Source: Geminicoccaceae bacterium
Lineage (GTDB): Bacteria > Pseudomonadota > Alphaproteobacteria > Geminicoccales > Geminicoccaceae
Length of the DNA stretch: 64,000 nucleotides
NCBI GenBank assembly: GCA_025999455.1
Contig: AP024683.1
Location: forward strand, 7,501 to 71,500
Direction: 5' to 3'
Made by a program: the position numbers and the translations under genes. The notes under the pieces are model-generated. The model was not told the DNA's origin. It searched no databases and saw only the letters and a list, made by a program, of their open reading frames with translations. Positions 11,499 through 61,112 of the stretch are shown here, piece by piece. Each line of letters opens with the position of its first letter. Within the stretch, counting starts at the first letter, position 1.

Positions 11499-11819
11499 TC
11501 AGCCCGCCCCGGCGGTGGCGTAGCCGCGCCGCGCCCGGGCGGCCCGATCGAGCCGGTCGAGCTCGCCGCGCAGCCGCTCCCGCTCGGCCGCGATCTCCAT
11601 GGCGAGCCCTTCGAGCTCGTCGAGGAGGGCGAGGAGAGCCGCCTCCTCCTCGGGCCCGGCCGGTGGCCGCCGCTCGGCCTCGGCGAACGCCTCGAGCCCG
11701 CGTTCGAGCGGCTCGAGCCCGACCGTGTCGCCGGCCGCGAGCCGTCGCCGAGCGGCCGCGAGGGACGCCTGGAGGGCCCGCCATTCGGCGCTCCGGCCGA
11801 CCGCGAGCGGCGCGCTCAC
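11499..11819 (-). CDS. Coiled-coil protein in flagellar operon (FlgN/FliT-like chaperone candidate)
   Basis: A 106-residue, almost entirely helical protein rich in Ala, Leu, Glu and Arg (EWRALQASLAAARRRLAAG; ELEGLAMEIAAERERLRGEL). I do not recognise a family. Its GTG start overlaps the upstream FlhB-like gene by 4 bp and it ends 6 bp before fliO, so it is translated with flagellar export proteins. Small helical hairpins in such positions are often export chaperones of the FlgN or FliT type; that is an inference from size, helicity and context only. Confidence 0.75.
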   Translation of the reverse strand: MSAPLAVGRSAEWRALQASLAAARRRLAAGDTVGLEPLERGLEAFAEAERRPPAGPEEEAALLALLDELEGLAMEIAAERERLRGELDRLDRAARARRGYATAGAG

Positions 11820-12103
11820 GAGCCCCTCCCCTGCCGGCGGGCCGCGATGCGCGCATCGAGCCGGTAGAGATGGACCAGGATCTCAGCGACCGCGGCGAAC
11901 GCCACGGTGGGGATCGGCGCGCCGAGCTCGAGCTTCTCGAGCAGCGCGACGAGAGCCCGGTCCTCGCGCACCGGGATGCCGTGCGCGCGGGCGAGCGCGA
12001 GGATCCGTTCCGCGAGGAAGCCCCGACCCTTGGCGACGAGGCGGGGCACGCCGCCCGTCTCGGGGTCGAAGCGCAGCGCCAAGGCGATGTCCGAGCCGCT
12101 CAT
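11816..12103 (-). CDS. FlhB C-terminal-domain homologue (export apparatus switch-like)
   Basis: A 95-residue cytoplasmic protein equal to the part of FlhB/YscU that follows the autocleavage site: IALALRFDPETGGVPRLVAKGRG, ERILALARAHGIPVREDRALVALLEKLELGAPIP and AVAEILVHLYRLDARI. The membrane part and the NPTH cleavage motif are absent. Stand-alone homologues (FlhX, YlqH) are known and can substitute for or modulate the FlhB substrate-specificity switch. ATG 12103 has GGAGG 7 nt upstream. It is the first gene of the operon and lies 33 bp downstream of a -10-like element next to a CtrA-like box. Confidence 0.9.
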   Translation of the reverse strand: MSGSDIALALRFDPETGGVPRLVAKGRGFLAERILALARAHGIPVREDRALVALLEKLELGAPIPTVAFAAVAEILVHLYRLDARIAARRQGRGS

Positions 12104-12135: not shown

Positions 12136-12166
12136 TTAGCGGCGATGTGGTTAACGAAGAGTTGAG
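12136..12166 (-). promoter_or_regulatory. CtrA-like promoter of the flagellar mini-operon
   Basis: Read on the minus strand, TCAA-CTCTTCG-TTAA (12166-12152) matches the CtrA consensus TTAA-N7-TTAA with one change, and GCTAAT (12141-12136) follows 10 nt later as a -10-like hexamer. The gene start is 33 bp further. CtrA control of class II flagellar genes is established in Alphaproteobacteria; its action here is inferred. Confidence 0.6.
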
Positions 12167-31940: not shown

Positions 31941-33776
31941 ATGGACCTGGTCGAAGGACGCGGCGAGGGCGAGAAGTCGGCGGAAAAGGGGCTCGGGCGG
32001 CGGCTGATCCAGCTCGTCTTGCCGCATCTGTGGCCCGCCGAGCCGCGCCTTCGCGCGATGGTCGTGCTCGCGGCCGTGGCGATGATCCTGGGCAAGCTCG
32101 TCACGGTCGCCACGCCCTTCGCGCTCAAGGGCGTGGTCGATGCCCTCGCCCCGCAGGAGGGCGTGCCGCTCGAAGCGATCCCGCTCGCCTTCCTCCTGGC
32201 CTACGGTGCCGCCCGGCTCGGCGGTACGCTCTTCAACGAGCTGCGCGACACGATCTTCGCGCGCGTCGCCGAGCGCGCCGGGCGGCGGGTGGCGCTGCGC
32301 ACCTACGAGCATCTCTTCGCGCTCTCGCTGCGCTGGCACCTCGAGCGGCGCACGGGCGAGCTCGCCCGGGCGATCAGCCGCGGCGTCCAGGCGGTGGGCT
32401 TCATGCTCCACACGGCCCTCTTCACCATGGGGCCGGTGGTGCTCGAGCTCGCCCTCGTGCTCGGTGTCCTGCTCTGGCGCTACCCGCCTTCCTTCGCGCT
32501 CGTGACCCTCGCCACGGTCGCGGTCTACGCCGCCTTCACGATCGCCACGACCGAATGGCGGACCAAGTTCCGCCGCGAGATGAACGAGAAGGACAACGAG
32601 TTCTCGGCCCAGGCGGTCGACGGGCTCTTGAACTACGAGATCGTGAAAGCCTTCGGCAACGAGGCCTTCGAGGCCCGCCGGCTCGACCGGGCCCTGCAGG
32701 GATACGAAGACGCGAGCGTGCGGGCGCAGGCGTCGCTCTCCTTCCTCAATGCCGGCCAGGCCGCGATCATCGCGGTCGGGGTCACCGTCGTCATGACGCT
32801 CGCCGCCTCGGGCGTGGTCGCGGGCGAGCTCACGGTGGGTGACGTCGTGCTCGTCAACGCCTTCCTCCTGCAGCTCTACATGCCGTTGAATTTCCTGGGC
32901 GTCCTCTACCGCGAGCTGCGCCAGTCCTTGACCGACCTCGAGCTCGTGGGTGGGCTTCTGGAGCTCGAGCCCGAGATCCGCGACGCGCCGGATGCGCGCC
33001 CCCTCGTCCTGCGCGGCGGCGAGGTCCGCTTCGAGCGGGTCCGCTTCGCCTACGATCCGCGCCGGCCGATCCTCGAAGACGTCACCTTCACGATCCCGGC
33101 CGGCCGCAAAGTGGCGATCGTCGGCGCGTCGGGGGCCGGCAAGTCGACGATCGTCCGGCTCCTGTTCCGCTTCTTCGACGTCACGGGCGGATCGGTCTCG
33201 ATCGACGGCCAGGACGTCCGCCGGGTGACCCAGGAGAGCCTCCGCGCGGCGATCGGTCTCGTGCCGCAGGACACGGTCCTCTTCAACGACACGATCGCCG
33301 CCAACATCGGCTACGCCCGGCCGGGGGCGAGCCGGGCGGAGATCGAGGCGGCGGCCAAGGTCGCGCAGATCCACGACTTCGTCGCGAGCCTGCCGCAGGG
33401 TTACGACACGGTCGTGGGCGAGCGCGGGCTCAAGCTCAGCGGTGGCGAGAAGCAGCGCGTGGCGATCGCCCGGGTCGTGCTCAAGAACCCGCCGATCCTC
33501 GTCCTCGACGAGGCGACCTCGGCCCTCGACAGCCTGACCGAACGGCAGCTCCAGGCAGCACTCGACGATGCCGCCCGCGGGCGCACGACGCTCGTCATCG
33601 CGCACCGGCTCTCGACCGTGATCGACGCCGACGAGATCCTCGTGCTCGAGGGTGGGCGGATCGTCGAGCGCGGGACCCACGAGCAGCTCTTGGCGAAGGG
33701 CGGCCTCTACCGCGCGCTCTGGACCCGCCAGCACGAAAAGGCGCTCGCCGAGCGGGCCGAGCCCGCGGCGCTCTGA
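31941..33776 (+). CDS. atm1: Atm1-type ABC exporter (half-transporter with fused ATPase)
   Basis: A 611-residue inner-membrane exporter of glutathione-linked metal or sulfur compounds, related to mitochondrial Atm1. The transmembrane domain (about residues 40-325, six helices) includes SLRWHLERRTGELARAISRG and the NYEIVKAFGNEAFE stretch typical of Atm1/HMT1. The ATPase has Walker A GASGAGKST, signature LSGGEKQRVAIARV, Walker B ILVLDEATSALD and the H-loop IAHRLSTV. It faces divergently from the GMC gene with a 137-bp spacer and converges with modC. Confidence 0.94.
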   Translation: MDLVEGRGEGEKSAEKGLGRRLIQLVLPHLWPAEPRLRAMVVLAAVAMILGKLVTVATPFALKGVVDALAPQEGVPLEAIPLAFLLAYGAARLGGTLFNELRDTIFARVAERAGRRVALRTYEHLFALSLRWHLERRTGELARAISRGVQAVGFMLHTALFTMGPVVLELALVLGVLLWRYPPSFALVTLATVAVYAAFTIATTEWRTKFRREMNEKDNEFSAQAVDGLLNYEIVKAFGNEAFEARRLDRALQGYEDASVRAQASLSFLNAGQAAIIAVGVTVVMTLAASGVVAGELTVGDVVLVNAFLLQLYMPLNFLGVLYRELRQSLTDLELVGGLLELEPEIRDAPDARPLVLRGGEVRFERVRFAYDPRRPILEDVTFTIPAGRKVAIVGASGAGKSTIVRLLFRFFDVTGGSVSIDGQDVRRVTQESLRAAIGLVPQDTVLFNDTIAANIGYARPGASRAEIEAAAKVAQIHDFVASLPQGYDTVVGERGLKLSGGEKQRVAIARVVLKNPPILVLDEATSALDSLTERQLQAALDDAARGRTTLVIAHRLSTVIDADEILVLEGGRIVERGTHEQLLAKGGLYRALWTRQHEKALAERAEPAAL

Positions 33777-33789
33777 CGGCCGACCAGCG

Positions 33790-33819
33790 TCAACCCTTCG
33801 TTAAGGAAGACCCGCTAGC
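33790..33819 (+). promoter_or_regulatory. Orphan CtrA-like promoter pointing into modC
   Basis: TCAA-CCCTTCG-TTAA at 33790-33804 is followed 9 nt later by GCTAGC (33814-33819), the same layout as the flagellar promoter at 12136-12166. It is followed by GGGAG and ATG at 33850 (MRVGGTISGKEARGERS), a plausible start of a gene that has no stop codon until well into the antisense of modC. The promoter appears to have lost its gene. CtrA control is inferred from the motif. Confidence 0.45.
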
Positions 33820-33906
33820 CTGGCGCTCGCGACAAGAGCGGGAGACGCCATGCGCGTCGGCGGGACGATCTCGGGAAAAGAGGCACGCGGCGAGCGGTCG
33901 ACCTCG

Positions 33907-35112
33907 TCACGGCCCCGGCCGATCGGACGTTCCGGCGCGATCCTCGCGGTCCTGGCCGGCCTTCTCCGCGCCCTCCTGGTCCGGTTCGTCGGTCGGGGCC
34001 CGGCCCGCGCCGCCCGAGGCCGGCATGAGGTGGATCCCCTCGGCCAAGAGCGAGACGGTGGCCGCCACACCGGGTTCGATCCCGTTGCGCCGAGCGACGT
34101 GGAGCGGCACGGAAAAGCGGATCGGGAGCTCCGGGGCGTGGTCGGGCCGCAGCGTCAGCCGCGCCGTCTGGCCAAGTGCCAGCACCTGCTCGATCCGGCC
34201 GGGGACCGGGTTCTCGTGCTCGCCGCGCGACGGCCGATCGCGGCGGTGGAGGATGACGAAGCCGTCCGGGACGACCCAGGGCACGGTCGCGCCGATCGCC
34301 GCGGCGCCGGCCCCGCGGACCTCGAGGAGCCGACCGCGCCAGTCGAGCAGCGTGGTCCCCCGCGCACGGTCGACGCCGGCGATCCGGCCCTCGAAGAGAT
34401 TGGCGAGATCGACGAGCCGGGCGACCTCGGGCGAGACCGGACGGGTCGTGACCTCGACCGGCGTGCCGGTCTGGAGCGTGCGGCCCCGGTGCAAGACCGT
34501 GAGGCGATCGGCCAGGAGCATCGCCTCCTCGAGATCGTGGGTGACGAGCAGCACGGGCATCGAGAGCAGGCGCCGGAGCTCGGCGATCTCCCGGTAGAGC
34601 CGCTGGCGCGTGGCCCGGTCGACCGCCGAGAAGGGCTCGTCCAACAGCAGAATGGCCGGCTCGCGGGCGAGGGCTCGGGCGACCGCGACCCGTTGCTGCT
34701 GGCCGCCCGAGAGCTCGGCGGGCTTGCGCGCTTCGAGCCCCTCCAGATGGACGAGCCGCAGGAGCTCGCGGGCCCGCGCGAGCCGTTCGGCGCGCGGCCG
34801 CTCGCCCATCGCCGCGGCGACGTTGTCGAGCGCGCTCATGTGCGGGAAGAGCGCGTAGGACTGGAACACCATGCCGACCCGCCGGCGATGCGTCGGCACG
34901 GAGATCCCCGCCGCCGTGTCGAGCCAGACCGTCCCGTCGACGACGACCCGCCCACGAGCCGGCCGGTAGAGGCCGGCGATCGCCCGGAGGATGGTGGTCT
35001 TGCCGCTACCGGAGGGGCCCACCAGCGCGGCGAGCTCGCCGGGCGCGCAACCGAGCCGGGCGGACAGGGGGATCGGTGCCGCTTGGTCGAGCTCGACCTC
35101 GAGACCGCCCAC
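33907..35112 (-). CDS. modC: Molybdate ABC transporter ATP-binding protein
   Basis: A 401-residue ATPase of the molybdate importer. Walker [10 protein letters not shown] (near residue 33), signature [15 protein letters not shown], Walker [13 protein letters not shown] and H-loop [11 protein letters not shown] are intact, and a C-terminal regulatory part (about 235-365) has the TOBE/Mop-like pattern. After about residue 368 ([12 protein letters not shown]) comes an unusual polar tail ([20 protein letters not shown]) outside the family; it is encoded opposite the orphan promoter's reading frame and may be a recent extension. GTG start, 6 bp after modB. Confidence 0.94.
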
Positions 35113-35118
35113 GGGCGT

Positions 35119-35787
35119 TCACCCGAGCCGGCGGCCGATGCGGCGCGAGGCGAGGAAGGTCACGGTGATCGTCGCGAGCGAGAAAAGGAGCAGGACGAGC
35201 GCCATCCGGGCCGCGGCCGCATCGTCGAACGCTTGCACCCGATCGTAGATCGCGATCGCGATCGTCTCGGTCTCGCCCGGGATCGCACCCCCCACCATGA
35301 GGACGATGCCGAACTCGCCGAGCGTGTGGGCGAAGGAGAGCACGAGCGCGGTCACGATGCCGGGCCAGGCGAGCGGCAGCTCGATCCGCAAGACGGCACG
35401 CCAAGGTGGCATGCCGCAGCAGGCGGCGGCGGCGCGGAGATCGGAAGGGATCGTTTCGAAGGCGCGCTGGATCGGCTGCACGGCGAAGGGAAGGTTGAAG
35501 ATCACCGAGGCGAGCAGGAGGCCCTCGAAGCTGAACACGAGCGTCCGACCGAAGAGCGTCTGCCAGAGTTGGCCGAGCGGCGAGGCGGCGCCGAACGCGA
35601 CGAGGAGGTAATAGCCGAAGACGGTGGGCGGCAGGACGAGCGGCAGCGCCACGAGTGCTTCGACGAGGACCTTGCCCGCGAAGACCCGGTAGGCGAGGGC
35701 GCGGCCCAGAACCACGCCGATCGGCAAGAGGAGGAGCACGGTGAGCCCGGCGAGCTCGAGCGAGAGGCGCAGAGCCACCCAATCCAT
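35119..35787 (-). CDS. modB: Molybdate ABC transporter permease
   Basis: A 222-residue permease with about five helices. The N-terminal LSLELAGLTVLLLLPIGVVLGRALAYR, the ALVALPLVLPPTVFGYYLLVAFG block and the EAA loop RAAAACCGMPPWRAVLRIELPLAWPGIV are ModB signatures, followed by FAHTLGEFGIVLMVGGAIPGET. It forms the channel for molybdate with ModC. It lies 39 bp after modA and 6 bp before modC in the same direction, giving a complete modABC set. Confidence 0.95.
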   Translation of the reverse strand: MDWVALRLSLELAGLTVLLLLPIGVVLGRALAYRVFAGKVLVEALVALPLVLPPTVFGYYLLVAFGAASPLGQLWQTLFGRTLVFSFEGLLLASVIFNLPFAVQPIQRAFETIPSDLRAAAACCGMPPWRAVLRIELPLAWPGIVTALVLSFAHTLGEFGIVLMVGGAIPGETETIAIAIYDRVQAFDDAAAARMALVLLLFSLATITVTFLASRRIGRRLG

Positions 35788-35826
35788 GCGCGGCGACCCC
35801 CTCGCCGAACGATCCCCGGACGGGTC

Positions 35827-36639
35827 CTACTCCGTCACCGCCTCGCCGGGGAGGAGGAAGCCGTAGCGGCGCAGCACGGTTCGGGCTTCCTCGCTCTGCA
35901 GATGGGCGAAGAACCGGTCGGCGGCGGGTCCGGCTCCGCGCAGCCGGACCATCCGCTGCCGCAGAGGCTCGTGCCACTCGGCGGCGATCGGAGCGTGATC
36001 GGCGCGGGCCCGGAGTTCGGGCGAGAGCGCCAGCGACAAGGCCACGATCCCGCCTTGGGCGTTGCCCGAGGTCGCGAACTGCGCCGCCTGGGCGACGTTC
36101 TCGCCGTAGACCAGGAGCGGCCGGATGGCCTCCCAGATCCCCTTGGTGCGCAAAACCTGTCGAGCGCGATCGCCGTAGGGTGCGTGCGTCGGATCGGCGA
36201 TCGCGAAACGCCGGAGCCGACCGTCCCGGACCGCCCGGGCGAGATCCTCGAGCGTGCCGTCGACCGCCAAGGGCGAACCCTTCGGCACGAGCAGGGCGAG
36301 CCGGCCGATGGCGTAGAGGGTCCCCTCGTCGCGGGTGAAACCGTCGCGGGCGAGGTCGAGGACGAAGGCCTCGTCGGCCGAAAGGAAGATGGCGAAGGGG
36401 GCGCCCTGGCGGATCTGCCGGGCGAGATTGCCGGACGAGCCGAACACGAGCCGGACGCTCGTCCCGGTCTCGGCGCGATAGTGCGCGGCGATCTCGTCGA
36501 GGGCGAAACGGAGATCGGCCGCCGCCGCGACGAGGAGCGGCTCGTCGCCGCGCGCGGTCGGGCCGCGCAGGATCGACGGGCCGGCGGCGAGGACGGCCGT
36601 CAGCCAAACCCGTCGCGTGGATCCCGGTCCTGCCCTCAC
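35827..36639 (-). CDS. modA: Molybdate ABC transporter substrate-binding protein
   Basis: A 270-residue periplasmic molybdate-binding protein. A signal sequence (STRRVWLTAVLAAGPSILRG) is followed by LLVAAAADLRFALDEIAAHY, the usual ModA opening, FGSSGNLARQIRQGAPFAIFLSADEAF and IADPTHAPYGDRARQVL, where oxyanion-binding serines and backbone amides lie. The GTG start at 36639 is the best available. It heads the operon; the upstream 447-bp spacer holds a long inverted repeat but no ModE-type site I recognise. Confidence 0.94.
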   Translation of the reverse strand: MRAGPGSTRRVWLTAVLAAGPSILRGPTARGDEPLLVAAAADLRFALDEIAAHYRAETGTSVRLVFGSSGNLARQIRQGAPFAIFLSADEAFVLDLARDGFTRDEGTLYAIGRLALLVPKGSPLAVDGTLEDLARAVRDGRLRRFAIADPTHAPYGDRARQVLRTKGIWEAIRPLLVYGENVAQAAQFATSGNAQGGIVALSLALSPELRARADHAPIAAEWHEPLRQRMVRLRGAGPAADRFFAHLQSEEARTVLRRYGFLLPGEAVTE

Positions 36640-37086
36640 GTCCCTCTCTCCGCGCGCGACGGTTCGGGCGTAGCGGGCGGCGCTCGAAGGTCAATGGGGG
36701 CGTCGAGGCGGACGCCGCGATCGGAAGCCGCGCAGCTGACGGCGGCCGGCAGCGTGATGCGACGGCCGCGTGTCCGCCCCCACCCGTCCCGTCGCACCGC
36801 GGTCGGTCGACCGCGCCACGTCGCCGCTCCGAGCGGGGCCGAGGGATGCGGGTCGACCGACCGCTCGCTCGTGCGGTCGCCGGGCCGAGGGCAGCCGCGG
36901 GTCGCGCCGGGTTCGCCGAACGACGGGCCCGGCTCGCGACGGCGCGCGGTCGAGCCGCCCCTCGTCGGGCTCGAGAGGCTCCTCCCACGCCCGAGCTTCG
37001 AGATGGTCGCGCGTCGCCGTCCCGGCGGCCGTCGGGCCGACACGCGGACGGGGCGCGGCCAGGGCCCGTGCAAGCCGGAAGCGGTC
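36640..37086. other. Gene-free spacer upstream of modA with a long inverted repeat
   Basis: No gene is recognised in these 447 bp. It holds the 14-bp perfect inverted repeat GCGGTCGGTCGACC (36799-36812) and its complement (36851-36864), with a smaller inverted repeat CCGCTC-C-GAGCGG (36824-36836) in the 38-nt loop. It lies between the 3' end of the Old Yellow Enzyme gene and the start of modA. No U-tract follows, so it is not a standard terminator. Confidence 0.6.
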
Positions 37087-38193
37087 TCAGCCGGCGCGCT
37101 TCATGGCCGCGCCCGGCCAGACCTGGGGCCGGCAGCGGACATATTGCGGCGGATAAGGGAGTTCGACGCCGAACTCTTGGGCGGCGTGCCAGGGCCAGCG
37201 CGGATCGTCCATGATGGTCCGGGCGAGTGCCACGAGATCGGCTTTGCCTTCGGCGAGGACGGCTTCGGCTTGGCGCGCCGTGACGATCAAGCCGACCGCC
37301 ATGGTCGGCAAGCCGGTCGCGCGGCGCACCGCTTCCGCGAAGGGCACCTGGTACCCGGGCCCGAGTGCCAATTTCTGCCGTGGGTCGAGGCCGCCCGAAG
37401 ACACGTCGACATAGTCGACCCCGAGGTCTTTCAGGGCCTGGGCGAGGGCGATCGTCTGTGCGAGGTCCCAGCCACCCTCGACCCAGTCGGTCGCCGAGAC
37501 CCGCACCCCCAAGGGTCGATCGGCTGGCCAGGCACGGCGGACCGCTTCGACCACGCGCAGAGGAAAGCGCATCCGCCCGGCGAGATCGCCGCCCCAGCGA
37601 TCGTTCCGGCGATTGGAGAGCGGCGAGAGGAACTGGTGGAGCAGATAGCCGTGTGCCAGATGGACCTCCAGGAGGTCGAGGCCGAGATCGGCGGCACGGC
37701 GCGTGGCGGCGACGAAATCCGCCTCGATCCGAGCGAGGTCGTCCTCGCTCGCGGCGCGCGGCGCGGGCCAGCCCTCGTCGTAGGGCAGTGCCGAAGCCGA
37801 GACGGTCCGCCAGGCCCCCTCTTCGGGCCGCAGAGGTTGCCCGCCTTCGAGCGGGACCCGACAGGAGCCCTTGCGGCCGGCATGGCCCAACTGAATGCCG
37901 AGCTTCGCCGTGCCGTCGCGGCGGCAGAAGGCGAGGATCGGGGCGAGGGCCACGGCGTGCGCGTCGCTCCACAAGCCGAGGCAGCCCGGGCTGATCCGGC
38001 CCTCGGGGCTGACCGCGGTCGCCTCAAGGATGACGAGGCCCGCCCCGCTCATCGAAAGATTGCCGAGATGGACGAGATGCCACTCGGTGGCGAGCCCGTC
38101 CCGGGCCCGGTACTGGCACATCGGCGAGACGACGATGCGGTTCGGCAGCTCGAGGCCGCGAAGGCGAAACGGTGTGAAGAGGTGGACGGTCAC
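37087..38193 (-). CDS. NADH:flavin oxidoreductase, Old Yellow Enzyme family (YqjM/NamA-like)
   Basis: A 368-residue FMN enzyme that reduces activated C=C bonds such as enones with NAD(P)H. The N-terminal FTPFRLRGLELPNRIVVSPMCQYRARDG carries the cysteine typical of the thermophilic-like YqjM branch, QLGHAGRKGS is the FMN/glutamine loop, and HLAHGYLLHQFLSPLSNRRNDRWGG holds the active-site His pair. DPRWPWHAAQEFG near the end is also typical of NamA. GTG start at 38193. The physiological substrate is not known. Confidence 0.93.
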   Translation of the reverse strand: MTVHLFTPFRLRGLELPNRIVVSPMCQYRARDGLATEWHLVHLGNLSMSGAGLVILEATAVSPEGRISPGCLGLWSDAHAVALAPILAFCRRDGTAKLGIQLGHAGRKGSCRVPLEGGQPLRPEEGAWRTVSASALPYDEGWPAPRAASEDDLARIEADFVAATRRAADLGLDLLEVHLAHGYLLHQFLSPLSNRRNDRWGGDLAGRMRFPLRVVEAVRRAWPADRPLGVRVSATDWVEGGWDLAQTIALAQALKDLGVDYVDVSSGGLDPRQKLALGPGYQVPFAEAVRRATGLPTMAVGLIVTARQAEAVLAEGKADLVALARTIMDDPRWPWHAAQEFGVELPYPPQYVRCRPQVWPGAAMKRAG

Positions 38194-38295
38194 GCGCGGG
38201 CTCCCCTCGGATCGACCGAGCCCCCGCTAACCGACCGTCATCGTCACGAGAAGAGCCGCGGACGGTTCGCTGCCCGGCGCACAGCCGGGTTCGGC

Positions 38296-38982
38296 TCAAA
38301 CGAGGAGGCGGTAGTCGAGGACCTCGCCTCCGGTCCGCACGACCGCCTTCACGATCCGACCGGCCTCGTCGTACCAGACCTCGCCGCCCCGCTCGCCCTC
38401 GGGGTTCATGCGCCAGCGCCGAGCGGCCACCGGACGACCCGCGACCGTGACCTGGTCCCGCTCGCCGCCCTCGAGGGCGAGCGGTTCGAGCTCGCCTTGT
38501 TGGCAGTCGATCACCCCGCGCTGGCGGACGATCGCGACATTCCAATAGCTGAGATCGTTCATCGTACCGAGCGGAGCGTCACGCACCCCGAGCGGCCCCT
38601 CGCAGACGAGGCGGCCAGCCCGCTCGCGCACCCGTACGGTGCTGCGCCGGCCGTTCTCGTCGGTCTCCGCGTCGGTCGCGACCAGACGACCCTCGCGCCA
38701 GAGGTCCTCGACACGCTGTTCGAAGCGGTAGACCGGGATGAAGGCGAGCGTGACCAGGACGTCGATCTCGTGCCGGACGACGAGCCCGCCGTTCGCCGCG
38801 ACGAAGGTCACGCGATGGGTGCCGATCCGCTCACCCTTGCGGAAGATCGCGAAGAAGCGGTCTTCCGGCAGCGCCGCGGCACGGAGTTCCCGGCCACGGG
38901 TCACGGCGAGCAACCCGCCGGCGGCGAGACCCGCCAAACATCTGCGCCGGTCGAAGCGCGGTTCTTTCGGCTCCGCGCGCAT
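38296..38982 (-). CDS. DUF6134 family exported protein (Tat-like signal)
   Basis: A 228-residue protein with an N-terminal twin-arginine-like signal (FDRRRCLAGLAAGGLLAVT) and a beta-rich body typical of DUF6134: FFAIFRKGERIGTHRVTF, VEIDVLVTLAFIPVYRFEQRVEDLW-type strands, and the closing KAVVRTGGEVLDYRLL. The family is uncharacterised; the fold resembles lipocalin-like outer-membrane or periplasmic carriers. ATG 38982 is preceded by GGGGGACGAG. It lies 24 bp downstream of the acylphosphatase gene and may be in one transcript with it. Confidence 0.82.
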   Translation of the reverse strand: MRAEPKEPRFDRRRCLAGLAAGGLLAVTRGRELRAAALPEDRFFAIFRKGERIGTHRVTFVAANGGLVVRHEIDVLVTLAFIPVYRFEQRVEDLWREGRLVATDAETDENGRRSTVRVRERAGRLVCEGPLGVRDAPLGTMNDLSYWNVAIVRQRGVIDCQQGELEPLALEGGERDQVTVAGRPVAARRWRMNPEGERGGEVWYDEAGRIVKAVVRTGGEVLDYRLLV

Positions 38983-39006
38983 CTCGTCCCCCCGCCGCCT
39001 CTGCAC

Positions 39007-39285
39007 TCAAACGGTCGGCAGTGCCACGAACCCGTCGAGATCCGCGCCCTCGGCCGCGGCGGTCTCGATCGCCTCGACCCGGGCTGCCGGCGGCCCCCGC
39101 CGACAGGCCTCGACGAGCGCCCGAACCGTCGCCTCGTCGCCGGCCAAGAGGGCCTCGACCGAGCCGTCGCGGCGGTTGCGGACCCAGCCCGCGACCCCGC
39201 GCCGGTCGGCCTCGCGGACCAACCAGGCGCGGTACCCGACGCCTTGGACCCGGCCACGGATCCGAAGCTGCAAAGCGAAGCTCAT
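39007..39285 (-). CDS. acyP: Acylphosphatase
   Basis: A 92-residue enzyme that hydrolyses acyl phosphates such as acetyl or carbamoyl phosphate. The catalytic arginine is in [12 protein letters not shown] (near residue 18) and the catalytic asparagine in [20 protein letters not shown] (near 36); the rest matches the ferredoxin-like fold. ATG 39285 gives a normal-length family member. The frame is open upstream for almost 1 kb, so translation may also arrive from the decayed dioxygenase reading frame. Confidence 0.93.
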
Positions 39286-40257
39286 CGCGGCGTACCTTCG
39301 CGTCAAGCGTTCATGGAACGCCGAGTGGATTGCGCTCCCGATCGTGTCCCGGGAGCATCGGTCCGTCCAGCTGGCGCTCGCGCCGAGCTCCCCGGCCGGA
39401 CCGCCTCGATCGAGCGCCCAGCTTCCCACGACGAAGGCCCGATGCGCGACGCTGCGGTGCAACCGACGGCCGGGGTGCCCCGGCGTTCCGGCGCCGACCG
39501 CGACGGGCAGAGGTCGGAGGTGCTCGGGCGTCGGGTGATTCCGGTCGGCGAAAGGCAGCCGCTCGTGCCACGCCACGAGGCTGGCGCGGTCGCTGCGCGC
39601 GAGCGCCGTGGCCAGCGCGTCGGCGAAGGCGGTCGCCTCGAGGGTCGGCTCGTTCACGTTCCGACGGACCGCTCCCGGATCGTGGACGAGGCTGCCCGAT
39701 CCGAGGATCGCCACCTCGGTGTCACGCGTCGGTACGATCGGGAGCCGCACCACCGGCAGGTCGGCAGCGGGCCGGGCCGGTGCGAGCGGGCCCCCTACGC
39801 CGTGATCGAACCCGGCCGTCGGATCGAGGGCGACCTCGAAGCCCTCGGCCTCGCGGCGAGCGGCCACCTGCCGTGCGAGGTCCGGTTCGCCCGGGGCGGG
39901 ACAGCGGAACGCCCGCAGCACGGGCGGGAAGGCGGCGACGTCGTCGATGGTCGGCGGCCGGTCGCCGGCGCCGAGGGTCTGGGGCTCGGTCTCGACCCGA
40001 GCGGAGATCGCGAGGATCGGGCGTGGCCGCGGCAACGAGGCGAGCAGGCCGGCCGGGCACCGCGCCGTCGGGTGCTCCTCGACGACGAGGGTGGAGGTGC
40101 CCTGGCCGAGGACGAGCGCGGGCCGGCGCGTGGTCGGGGAACCCGTGTCCGACCGGGTCGCGGGTCGTACTGCGCCGGCGGTCGGCGTACGGGTCGCGTG
40201 GCCTGGGCGAGCCGCGGAGGTAAGAGTGTGCACCGCCGGCGGTCGGCGTTCGGCCAT
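39286..40257 (-). pseudogene. Decayed LigB/DODA-type extradiol dioxygenase, open into acyP
   Basis: The frame still shows the skeleton of the class III extradiol dioxygenase family (YgiD/DODA): [18 protein letters not shown] where a metal-binding His is expected, [11 protein letters not shown] where SAHW is expected, [21 protein letters not shown] and [12 protein letters not shown]. Two of the metal-ligand histidines are replaced (SHG to GQG, SAHW to SARV) and about 15 residues are missing between [14 protein letters not shown] and EVAILGSG. The usual stop is gone and the frame runs into acyP. It is either a pseudogene or a non-catalytic derivative fused to acylphosphatase. Confidence 0.6.
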
Positions 40258-40436
40258 CCCGGAGATCGTATCGGCCGGGTGGCCCGTCCGCCAACGTGCC
40301 GGCAAACGAACCGTTCCCGGCTCGGCCCCGATTCCTCGCGACGGCGTCGCTGCGCATCCGGCTCGCGCCCGTCGGGATGGCCCGTGCGCACCGGGTCGGG
40401 TAAAGTCGAGCCGGCCGGTCGCGATCGGAGGCGTCG

Positions 40437-41150
40437 ATGATCGACCTCTACTATTGGCCGACGCCGAACGGCCACAAGATCACCCTCTTTCTCGAAGAGG
40501 TCGGGCTTCCCTACCGGATCGTCCCGGTCGACATCGGCCGGGGCGACCAGTTCCGCCCGGAATTCCTCGCGATCGCCCCGAACAACCGGATGCCGGCGAT
40601 CGTCGACCACGAGCCGGCCGACGGGGGGCCGCCGCTCTCGCTGTTCGAGTCGGGGGCCATCCTTCTCTATCTCGCGGAAAAGACGGGGCGCTTCCTGCCC
40701 GCCGATCCGCGCGGCCGGGTCGAGGTCCTGCAATGGCTCTTCTGGCAAATGGGCGGGCTCGGGCCGATGGCCGGCCAGGCGCACCATTTCCGGCACTACG
40801 CACCCGAACCGATCCCCTACGCGATCGAGCGGTACACGAAGGAAGTGAGCCGGCTCTACGCCGTGCTCGACCGACGGCTCGCCGACCGACCGTTCGTGGC
40901 CGGGGAGGACTACACGATCGCCGACATGGCCGCCTACCCCTGGATCGTGCCCCACGAACGCCAGGGCCAAAGGCTCGAGGACTTCCCGAACCTCGCCCGC
41001 TGGTTCCGGGCGATCGAAGCGCGGTCCGCGACCCGCCGAGCCTACGAGCTCGGACCGAAGATCAACCCCCGGCTCGGCCAGCCCATGGACGAAGCGGCCA
41101 GGAAGGTTCTCTTCGGCCAAGACGCCGGCACGGTGCGGCGTGCCGGCTAA
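40437..41150 (+). CDS. Glutathione S-transferase (YfcG/YghU-like, disulfide-bond oxidoreductase type)
   Basis: A 237-residue GST. The thioredoxin-like domain opens with [25 protein letters not shown], where the T-P-N replaces a catalytic Tyr/Ser, as in Nu-class enzymes YfcG and Ygh[16 protein letters not shown] is the glutathione gamma-glutamyl site. The helical C-terminal domain has [22 protein letters not shown] and [20 protein letters not shown]. Nu-class members reduce disulfides and organic peroxides. The stop TAA overlaps the stop of the opposite-strand TRIC gene. Confidence 0.93.
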
Positions 41151-61097: not shown

Positions 61098-61112
61098 TCA
61101 ACGAAAGGTTAA
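61098..61112. promoter_or_regulatory. CtrA-like box upstream of the type I secretion operon
   Basis: TTAA-CCTTTCG-TTGA on the minus strand (61112-61098) matches TTAA-N7-TTAA with one change and lies 70 bp before the exporter start. The same box shape precedes the flagellar mini-operon and the orphan promoter in modC. Regulation by CtrA is inferred. Confidence 0.45.

Follow-up and report, generated by a model that had tools for sequence, protein, structure and literature searches.

Promoters activated by CtrA in Alphaproteobacteria are among the closest described counterparts of the start region considered here. The CtrA consensus is TTAA-N7-TTAA: its half sites, both TTAA-like, are separated by 11 nt, and a -10 element follows at fixed spacing. 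The site beside modC has the same box, spacing and -10, and in its genus the motif stands before genes of the same kinds (fliX, FlhB-like, CsrA and Flp-pilin-like); the difference is that CtrA-activated promoters have an ordinary gene behind them, whereas at modC there is an ORF without a near stop.

Transertion is the coupling of transcription, translation and membrane insertion. It has long been asked how bacterial DNA can be attached to the membrane when no dedicated proteins are involved, and the case for transertion has mostly been indirect. In the available part of their article, Thomas et al. 2023 (PMC10400600) proposed that antisense ORFs coding for membrane proteins act as transertion tethers. 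Antisense hydrophobic products that link DNA to the membrane are common to that proposal and to the one made below. However, theirs is, in that part of the text, a scan of existing genes without a laboratory test, whereas the starts described here have a dedicated promoter, Shine-Dalgarno sequence and leader, located for the most part outside the gene, show a frame bias that was measured, and recur in several species. If the leaders are tethers, they would also resemble Noc and SlmA, for which dispersed chromosomal sites join nucleoid and membrane; in those systems (PMC4331003, PMC7468209) a DNA-bound protein is reported to bind the membrane, whereas the leaders would use a nascent chain.

The arfA gene of E. 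coli, in the part of the source at hand, produces a stop-less message and is convergent with mscL (PMC10070815). A message without a usable stop, lying tail-to-tail with another gene, is therefore a shared property; arfA, by the same extract, is a single protein family whose message loses its stop when RNase III cleaves it, whereas the sequences found here are many and unrelated, begin with a membrane leader and keep their frame open for hundreds of codons. As regards a possible arfA-like rescue factor, the site beside modC gave no Pfam hit and no Rfam hit. In titles and the starts of abstracts of the open-licence literature, no description of such a class of starts was found among the matches listed. 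Annotation programs would miss such starts or miscall them as long false genes.

The start region and long frame beside modC

We call the window the whole 64,000-nt stretch of DNA that was analysed. It belongs to G000 (3.76 Mb, one contig), one of six genomes of its genus, G000 to G005. Between an atm1-like ABC exporter upstream (31941 to 33776, plus strand) and the convergent modC (33907 to 35112, minus strand), a reading of positions 33790 to 33850 finds a CtrA-type box, GCTAGC, GGGAG and ATG all present. The box TCAACCCTTCGTTAA, of the form TCAA-N7-TTAA, occupies 33790 to 33804 (+) and scores PWM 37.6 on a matrix whose training set includes this site. The -10-like GCTAGC follows at 33814 to 33819 (+), spaced as at 12165(-) and at other sites, and places the expected transcription start near 33826; the Shine-Dalgarno sequence GGGAG lies at 33840 to 33844 (+). 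With the half-site spacing and the -10 spacing of the CtrA-type layout, the promoter reads as a strong, conserved match. The original prediction of a CtrA-type promoter, ribosome-binding site and ATG at this place is borne out, as is the layout that it saw shared with a flagellar promoter at 12165(-): box to GCTA is 24-25 nt, and box to start is 60 and 62 nt at the two sites. The comparison promoter, TCAACTCTTCGTTAA at 12151 to 12165 (-), serves a FlhB C-terminal-domain-like gene (PF01312, E 6.9e-17). This gene stands alone in the window at 11816 to 12103 (-), has 95 aa matching PF01312 positions 260-333 and has its CtrA-type promoter at 12165; it has homologues in G002-G005, where the box is similar, and in G006, where the box is a related one. 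Another TCAA-N7-TTAA site, TCAACGAAAGGTTAA, is seen at window position 61098 (+); over the range scanned, no Shine-Dalgarno sequence and start follow it. The same 15 bases were found again at G000:C1:3,166,485-3,166,499 (-).

In the sister species G004, atm1 and modC follow one another in the same order, with box, -10, GGGAG and ATG. The block GCGTCAA..GCTAG, from box to -10, is identical in 30 of 32 bases, and GCGGGAGACGCCATG, from GGGAG to ATG, in 14 of 15. The DNA between the conserved blocks has diverged, and so have the first codons: codons 2-20 match in 20 of 57 bases, and the first 28 codons of the leader in 35 of 84. Both species encode a hydrophobic stretch from codon 30, which in the window covers codons 30-46 (33937 to 33987, +; KD 2.53 over 15 residues) and in G004 reads ALLAILAGILRAVLAAL at the same codons.

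The leader ORF extends from 33850 to 40440 (+), 2196 codons in codon-aligned antisense to modC, modB and modA, all three in one phase relative to it (modB and modA were named from sequence). The frame had been described as antisense to modC and as having no stop; the former is correct, whereas a stop does exist, 6.6 kb away. The modC stop lies 57 nt inside the ORF in phase 0, and an extra ModC tail of 38 aa (33910 to 34023, -) lies opposite the hydrophobic segment of the leader, its length and stop position being as in G004. The unusual tail was rightly noticed: ModC continues beyond GIHLM for 38 aa in the window and G004, compared with 5 in G005 and 1 in G006 and G020. The tails of G002 and G003 are 23 and 21 aa, although atm1 does not adjoin their modC. 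Identities between the window and G004 by codon position are 11, 16 and 11 of 18, and two sequences cannot tell which strand may be selected at modC, that of the leader or that of the ModC tail, a point that weighs against our best explanation.

Synteny in the genus gives a mixed picture. G004 has the insert, G005 has atm1-modC without it, so that the element is absent at its modC, which counts against our best explanation, and in G001-G003 the gene after atm1 is a different one, an acyl-CoA dehydrogenase to judge from its sequence. To the right of atm1 the genus therefore varies, with modC in G000, G004 and G005 against an acyl-CoA-dehydrogenase-like gene in G001-G003, and this marks a rearrangement breakpoint. 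A spacer paralogue elsewhere in the genome was looked for and rejected, with weak short DNA matches only (best E 0.004 over 25 bases), and an Rfam search of the spacer gave no match at E 1.

The original prediction also suggested that the start region may be what is left of a flagellar gene, fliX-like or other, severed by a rearrangement beside modC. That atm1 has different right-hand neighbours in the genus shows that rearrangement did occur. However, fliX is intact elsewhere in G000 (PF10768, E 4.9e-28, at G000:C1:3,721,937, with its own CtrA-like box TCAACCTTTCCTTAA), and Pfam searches of the window ORF, one with its first 83 codons at E 1 and one with its first 60 residues at 0.01, found nothing. 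Nor is this a decaying leftover, because box, -10, Shine-Dalgarno sequence and ATG are conserved with G004, and the arrangement is not unique to modC but recurs beside other genes. We therefore give the flagellar remnant next to no credence.

The promoter motif and the genes behind it

The pattern TYAANNNTTCGTTAA, derived from the window's own sites, occurs 19 times in the six genus genomes, compared with once for its reversed control. A TYAA-N7-TTAA box with GGAG and RTG gave 33 matches in these genomes, one box appearing twice in the count, whereas its reversed control gave 1; for the sister pattern TTAA-N7-TCAA with GGAG and RTG the numbers are 18 and 0. Among the genes that the motif precedes in the genus are fliX, FlhB-like genes, CsrA (PF02599) and Flp-like pilins, the latter with matches to PF04964 (E 3.6e-7 and 2.7e-6) that fall short of Pfam's own cut-off. 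We take these to be CtrA-class genes, and it is because of them that the motif is named CtrA-type. From the motif and the genes behind its sites, we infer that CtrA would be the regulator; a narrow text pattern did not find ctrA in the sampled 44% of the genome.

Several further observations concern the motif. GANTC is depleted in the G000 sample L308-L387 (1428 seen against 4169 expected from base composition), and TTAA is strongly depleted there (94 against 683). Depletion of both is expected where CcrM and CtrA act. Ordinary genes were also found behind motif sites in the same searches, together with a few motif starts whose ORFs soon reach a stop, for example after 34 aa at G001:C121 and after 83 aa at G003:C53. 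Three proteins (L049, L047 and L153, in G000, G004 and G001), each some 290-300 aa long and containing hydrophobic stretches, have CtrA-type boxes upstream.

Leaders in stop-free frames across the genus

Twenty-four starts in the six genus genomes (9 in G000, 1 in G001, 4 in G002, 3 in G003, 2 in G004 and 5 in G005) combine a CtrA-like promoter, a start with a Shine-Dalgarno sequence some 60 nt on (about 54-66) and a hydrophobic or amphipathic first part. No stop occurs for at least 312 codons wherever enough sequence was at hand; the biotin carboxylase leaders of G001, G002 and G003 are open to the end of the 778-803 nt examined. We consider it very probable that this class of stop-less membrane leaders is real. 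The modC-side site, with KD 2.53, 2196 codons, 57 nt to the partner stop and phase 0, has the features proposed for it. Five species (G000, G001, G002, G003 and G005) have a leader next to biotin carboxylase, three (G000, G004 and G005) next to hisA-IE and two (G000 and G005) next to dctM, and single ones lie beside LysR-type, formate-tetrahydrofolate ligase, short-chain dehydrogenase, squalene/phytoene-synthase-like and other genes, the partner genes having been checked with Pfam.

We rejected a transposed single gene as the source of the class, as leaders at different loci are alike in character and not in sequence. A likeness between the G005 biotin carboxylase leader and that of the window (LAG..RA.L) was dropped once more leaders were compared, and a G-R-G motif after the hydrophobic part proved not to be general.

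Nineteen of the 24 leaders face a convergent gene, and 19 of 19 are in phase 0, that is, codon-aligned antisense; the count leaves out those without a clear convergent partner (G005:C52, G005:C16, L322, L339 and L349/L368), farther phase-2 candidates of C19 and G005:C52 (1169 and 1823 nt) and a phase-0 candidate of L339 at 1092 nt. The distances from start to partner stop are 57, 57, 156, 429, 252, 237, 279, 99, 99 and 147 nt for the first ten and 330, 279, 123, 231, 264, 150, 111, 207 and 138 nt for the other nine. Some starts (biotin carboxylase in G001, G002 and G003, hisE in G004 and G005, and G005:C92) were chosen by eye on Shine-Dalgarno sequence and hydrophobicity, the phase being seen afterwards. 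The partners of G002:C33, G003:C11, G003:C19 and the G003 biotin carboxylase leader failed a strict composition filter and were accepted on looser criteria; Pfam later confirmed those of G003:C11 and G003:C19, the G003 biotin carboxylase partner reads as the C-terminus of that protein, and the G002:C33 partner (150 nt), with no Pfam hit, is the least certain of the 19. At the biotin carboxylase site the distances in the five species are 156, 237, 252, 279 and 429 nt, all in phase 0; as they differ, insertions and deletions have preserved the frame. By comparison, control starts without the motif fall into phases 0, 1 and 2 in 50, 54 and 44 of 148 cases, those of a second control set in 87, 195 and 128 of 410, and three Flp-like pilins with stops lie in phases 0, 1 and 2. 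In GC-rich genes, phase-0 antisense is the frame with the fewest stops, because only the sense codons TTA, CTA and TCA create stops in it.

These partners bring forward a first alternative, in which a CtrA-driven, translated antisense RNA represses the convergent gene in CtrA-on cells, the stop-free frame keeping ribosomes on the message and holding off Rho. Its targets would be modCBA here and biotin carboxylase, hisA-IE, dctM, purH and formate-tetrahydrofolate ligase elsewhere. That 19 of the 24 leaders enter a convergent gene, that several partner genes are biosynthetic and that phase 0 and the missing stops suit a need for long translation all speak for it, but it leaves the hydrophobic leaders without an explanation, and the partners have no obvious function in common. 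Moreover, some leaders on the sense strand likewise have no near stop: L339 (box 2,111,633) is an out-of-frame reading of an oxidoreductase-like gene, L322 (box 2,634,515) is in frame with a downstream binding-protein-like gene, which makes its missing stop less telling, and G005:C52 is a third. Stop-less sense-strand leaders fit a tether better than an antisense role, and we regard antisense repression as rather unlikely.

A 37-column promoter matrix, built from 47 non-redundant sites, was used to scan 1.5855 Mb of G000 in regularly spaced pieces (1.6495 Mb with the window). At 18 bits or more, the scans returned 13, 20 and 14 rows, 47 in all, which represent 46 sites. Among them are five distinct new leaders that are hydrophobic and meet no early stop, with boxes at 419,232, 1,427,937, 1,575,524, 2,111,633 and 2,634,515; by Pfam, the second adjoins a thiamine-pyrophosphate enzyme and the third purH. 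Two of the new leaders have a clear convergent partner, both in phase 0. Seventeen rows have ORFs of ordinary-gene composition. Counting against our best explanation, 18 of the 47 rows have no start with a Shine-Dalgarno sequence, and in six the ORF is short (10-100 aa), ends in a stop and has a KD below 1.5.

The prediction of phase 0, hydrophobicity and no stop was written before the later scans, 2,634,515 being already known from the first; the exact cut-offs (300 codons, KD 1.5, 460 nt) were set after it. The 1.6495 Mb contain 410 control starts that face the end of a gene no more than 460 nt away, and only 2 of these combine phase 0, 300 or more codons and KD of at least 1.5. Of the 4 starts that have a matrix match, 3 do so; the window site, one of the three, is in the training set, while the other two lie outside it and came to light once the rule had been written. 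The remaining start is a Flp-like pilin. These numbers bear on a second alternative, that the promoter alone is functional, as a CtrA site that serves either a non-coding RNA or nothing at all, and that the open frame is simply one of the long antisense ORFs usual in a genome of 71% GC. Long antisense ORFs are indeed common in the window, and 31% (27/87) of the phase-0 control starts also run for at least 300 codons. However, GGGAG and ATG are conserved, the combination of hydrophobicity, phase and length is that of 2 controls in 410, and the spacer's lack of an Rfam match at E 1 also speaks against it; we consider a functional promoter alone quite improbable.

Leader composition and a possible membrane tether

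In 16 of 16 sites tested, the frame-0 leader is more hydrophobic than frames 1 and 2. The first 35 or so codons of the class ORFs are hydrophobic or amphipathic well beyond controls, although some leaders are amphipathic and not clearly transmembrane (KD 0.85-1.10 at G002:C370, at G003:C19 and at the hisE site of G000), which counts against our best explanation. From start to partner stop, the 1063 codons of 16 sites hold 0 stops in frame 0, compared with 6 in frame 1 and 3 in frame 2. Single-base shuffles of these codons gave 12.8 stops on average and never 0 in 2000, but they exaggerate the avoidance because all frames are stop-poor, and 0 against 9 is the fairer comparison. The sequences show that the chosen frame stays stop-free for hundreds of codons and is usually the codon-aligned antisense of the convergent gene. 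Codons 2-35 of 17 sites are coding-like (GC1/2/3 0.77/0.60/0.83, T at codon position 2 of 0.34), whereas the tails of 17 sites, from codon 36 to the partner stop, have no codon periodicity (0.77/0.75/0.79). The tail thus appears to be without codon-level selection beyond the absence of stops; selection seems to see the hydrophobic leader and the lack of stops, and not the sequence of the tail.

Coding-like, hydrophobic leaders and tails without periodicity would also be expected if the leaders were genes without a stop for tiny membrane peptides of about 35 residues, with tmRNA or a rescue factor freeing the ribosomes at the end of the transcript; the frame of the tail would then matter only since other antisense frames yield harmful, very basic tails. 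For a stop-less, convergent gene there is a precedent in E. coli arfA, as described in the available part of the source (PMC10070815). Yet a single stop codon would suffice for such peptides, and none lies near in 24 leaders; furthermore, at orthologous sites (biotin carboxylase and hisE) the leaders are alike in character but hardly in sequence. To us, tiny peptides seem about as improbable as antisense repression.

Two requirements can be seen in the leaders, arrival at the membrane and translation without a stop, and transertion is the known idea that calls for both. We suggest that the modC-side site is most likely a working CtrA-type promoter and translation start within a genus-wide class of stop-less membrane leaders that may serve as transertion tethers. 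This remains our leading explanation, held tentatively and at a little less than an even chance. In CtrA-on cells, the nascent leader chain would enter the inner membrane while transcription and translation carry on through the neighbouring gene. Gene, RNA polymerase, mRNA, ribosome and membrane would remain coupled, and the chromosomal spot would be tied to the membrane for as long as ribosomes follow the polymerase, the peptide sequence itself being disposable. The tether mechanism taken by itself is possible, though on balance doubtful. That these are cell-cycle-timed DNA elements, nine of them in G000 so far, whose sole job is an unstopped, membrane-inserted chain, and hence encoded transertion anchors, is a bolder claim that we consider unlikely, if less so than either antisense repression or tiny peptides. 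The elements are short and defined (promoter, leader and stop-free frame) and could be excised, relocated or interrupted by a stop codon, which makes the tether idea directly testable. Even if antisense control or tiny peptides turned out to be true, genus-wide starts in stop-free frames would be new to us.

Thirteen genomes of sister genera were searched with TYAAC-N6-TTAAC, a narrow pattern that would catch 8 of the 24 genus boxes. We looked at 40 regions (all listed sites of G006 and G017 and part of those in G011, G019 and G020) and at 30 loci from the 13 genomes, partly the same sites. None of these 70 partly overlapping loci found with the narrow pattern has a stop-less hydrophobic leader; there are ordinary genes with stops, or no start. 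The class is likely confined to the window's genus, to judge from a pattern that catches 8 of 24 boxes. Genes behind the sites in the sister genera, named from sequence, include a Flp-like pilin, PilZ-like and FlhB-like genes and a membrane protein of 54-55 aa.

Flp pilins and the 54-55-aa proteins of G006 and G020 have the same kind of promoter and a hydrophobic stretch, but differ from the leaders in having stops and sequences that are alike between species. Single-TM-like proteins of this length, with stops and CtrA-type sites, were seen in G006 (L276), G020 (L301) and G000 (L350, near 595,486, minus strand). Those of G006 and G020 are alike (MAKAAP..LPIPIA..ILYGLSLLFG), and the one of G000 is possibly related.
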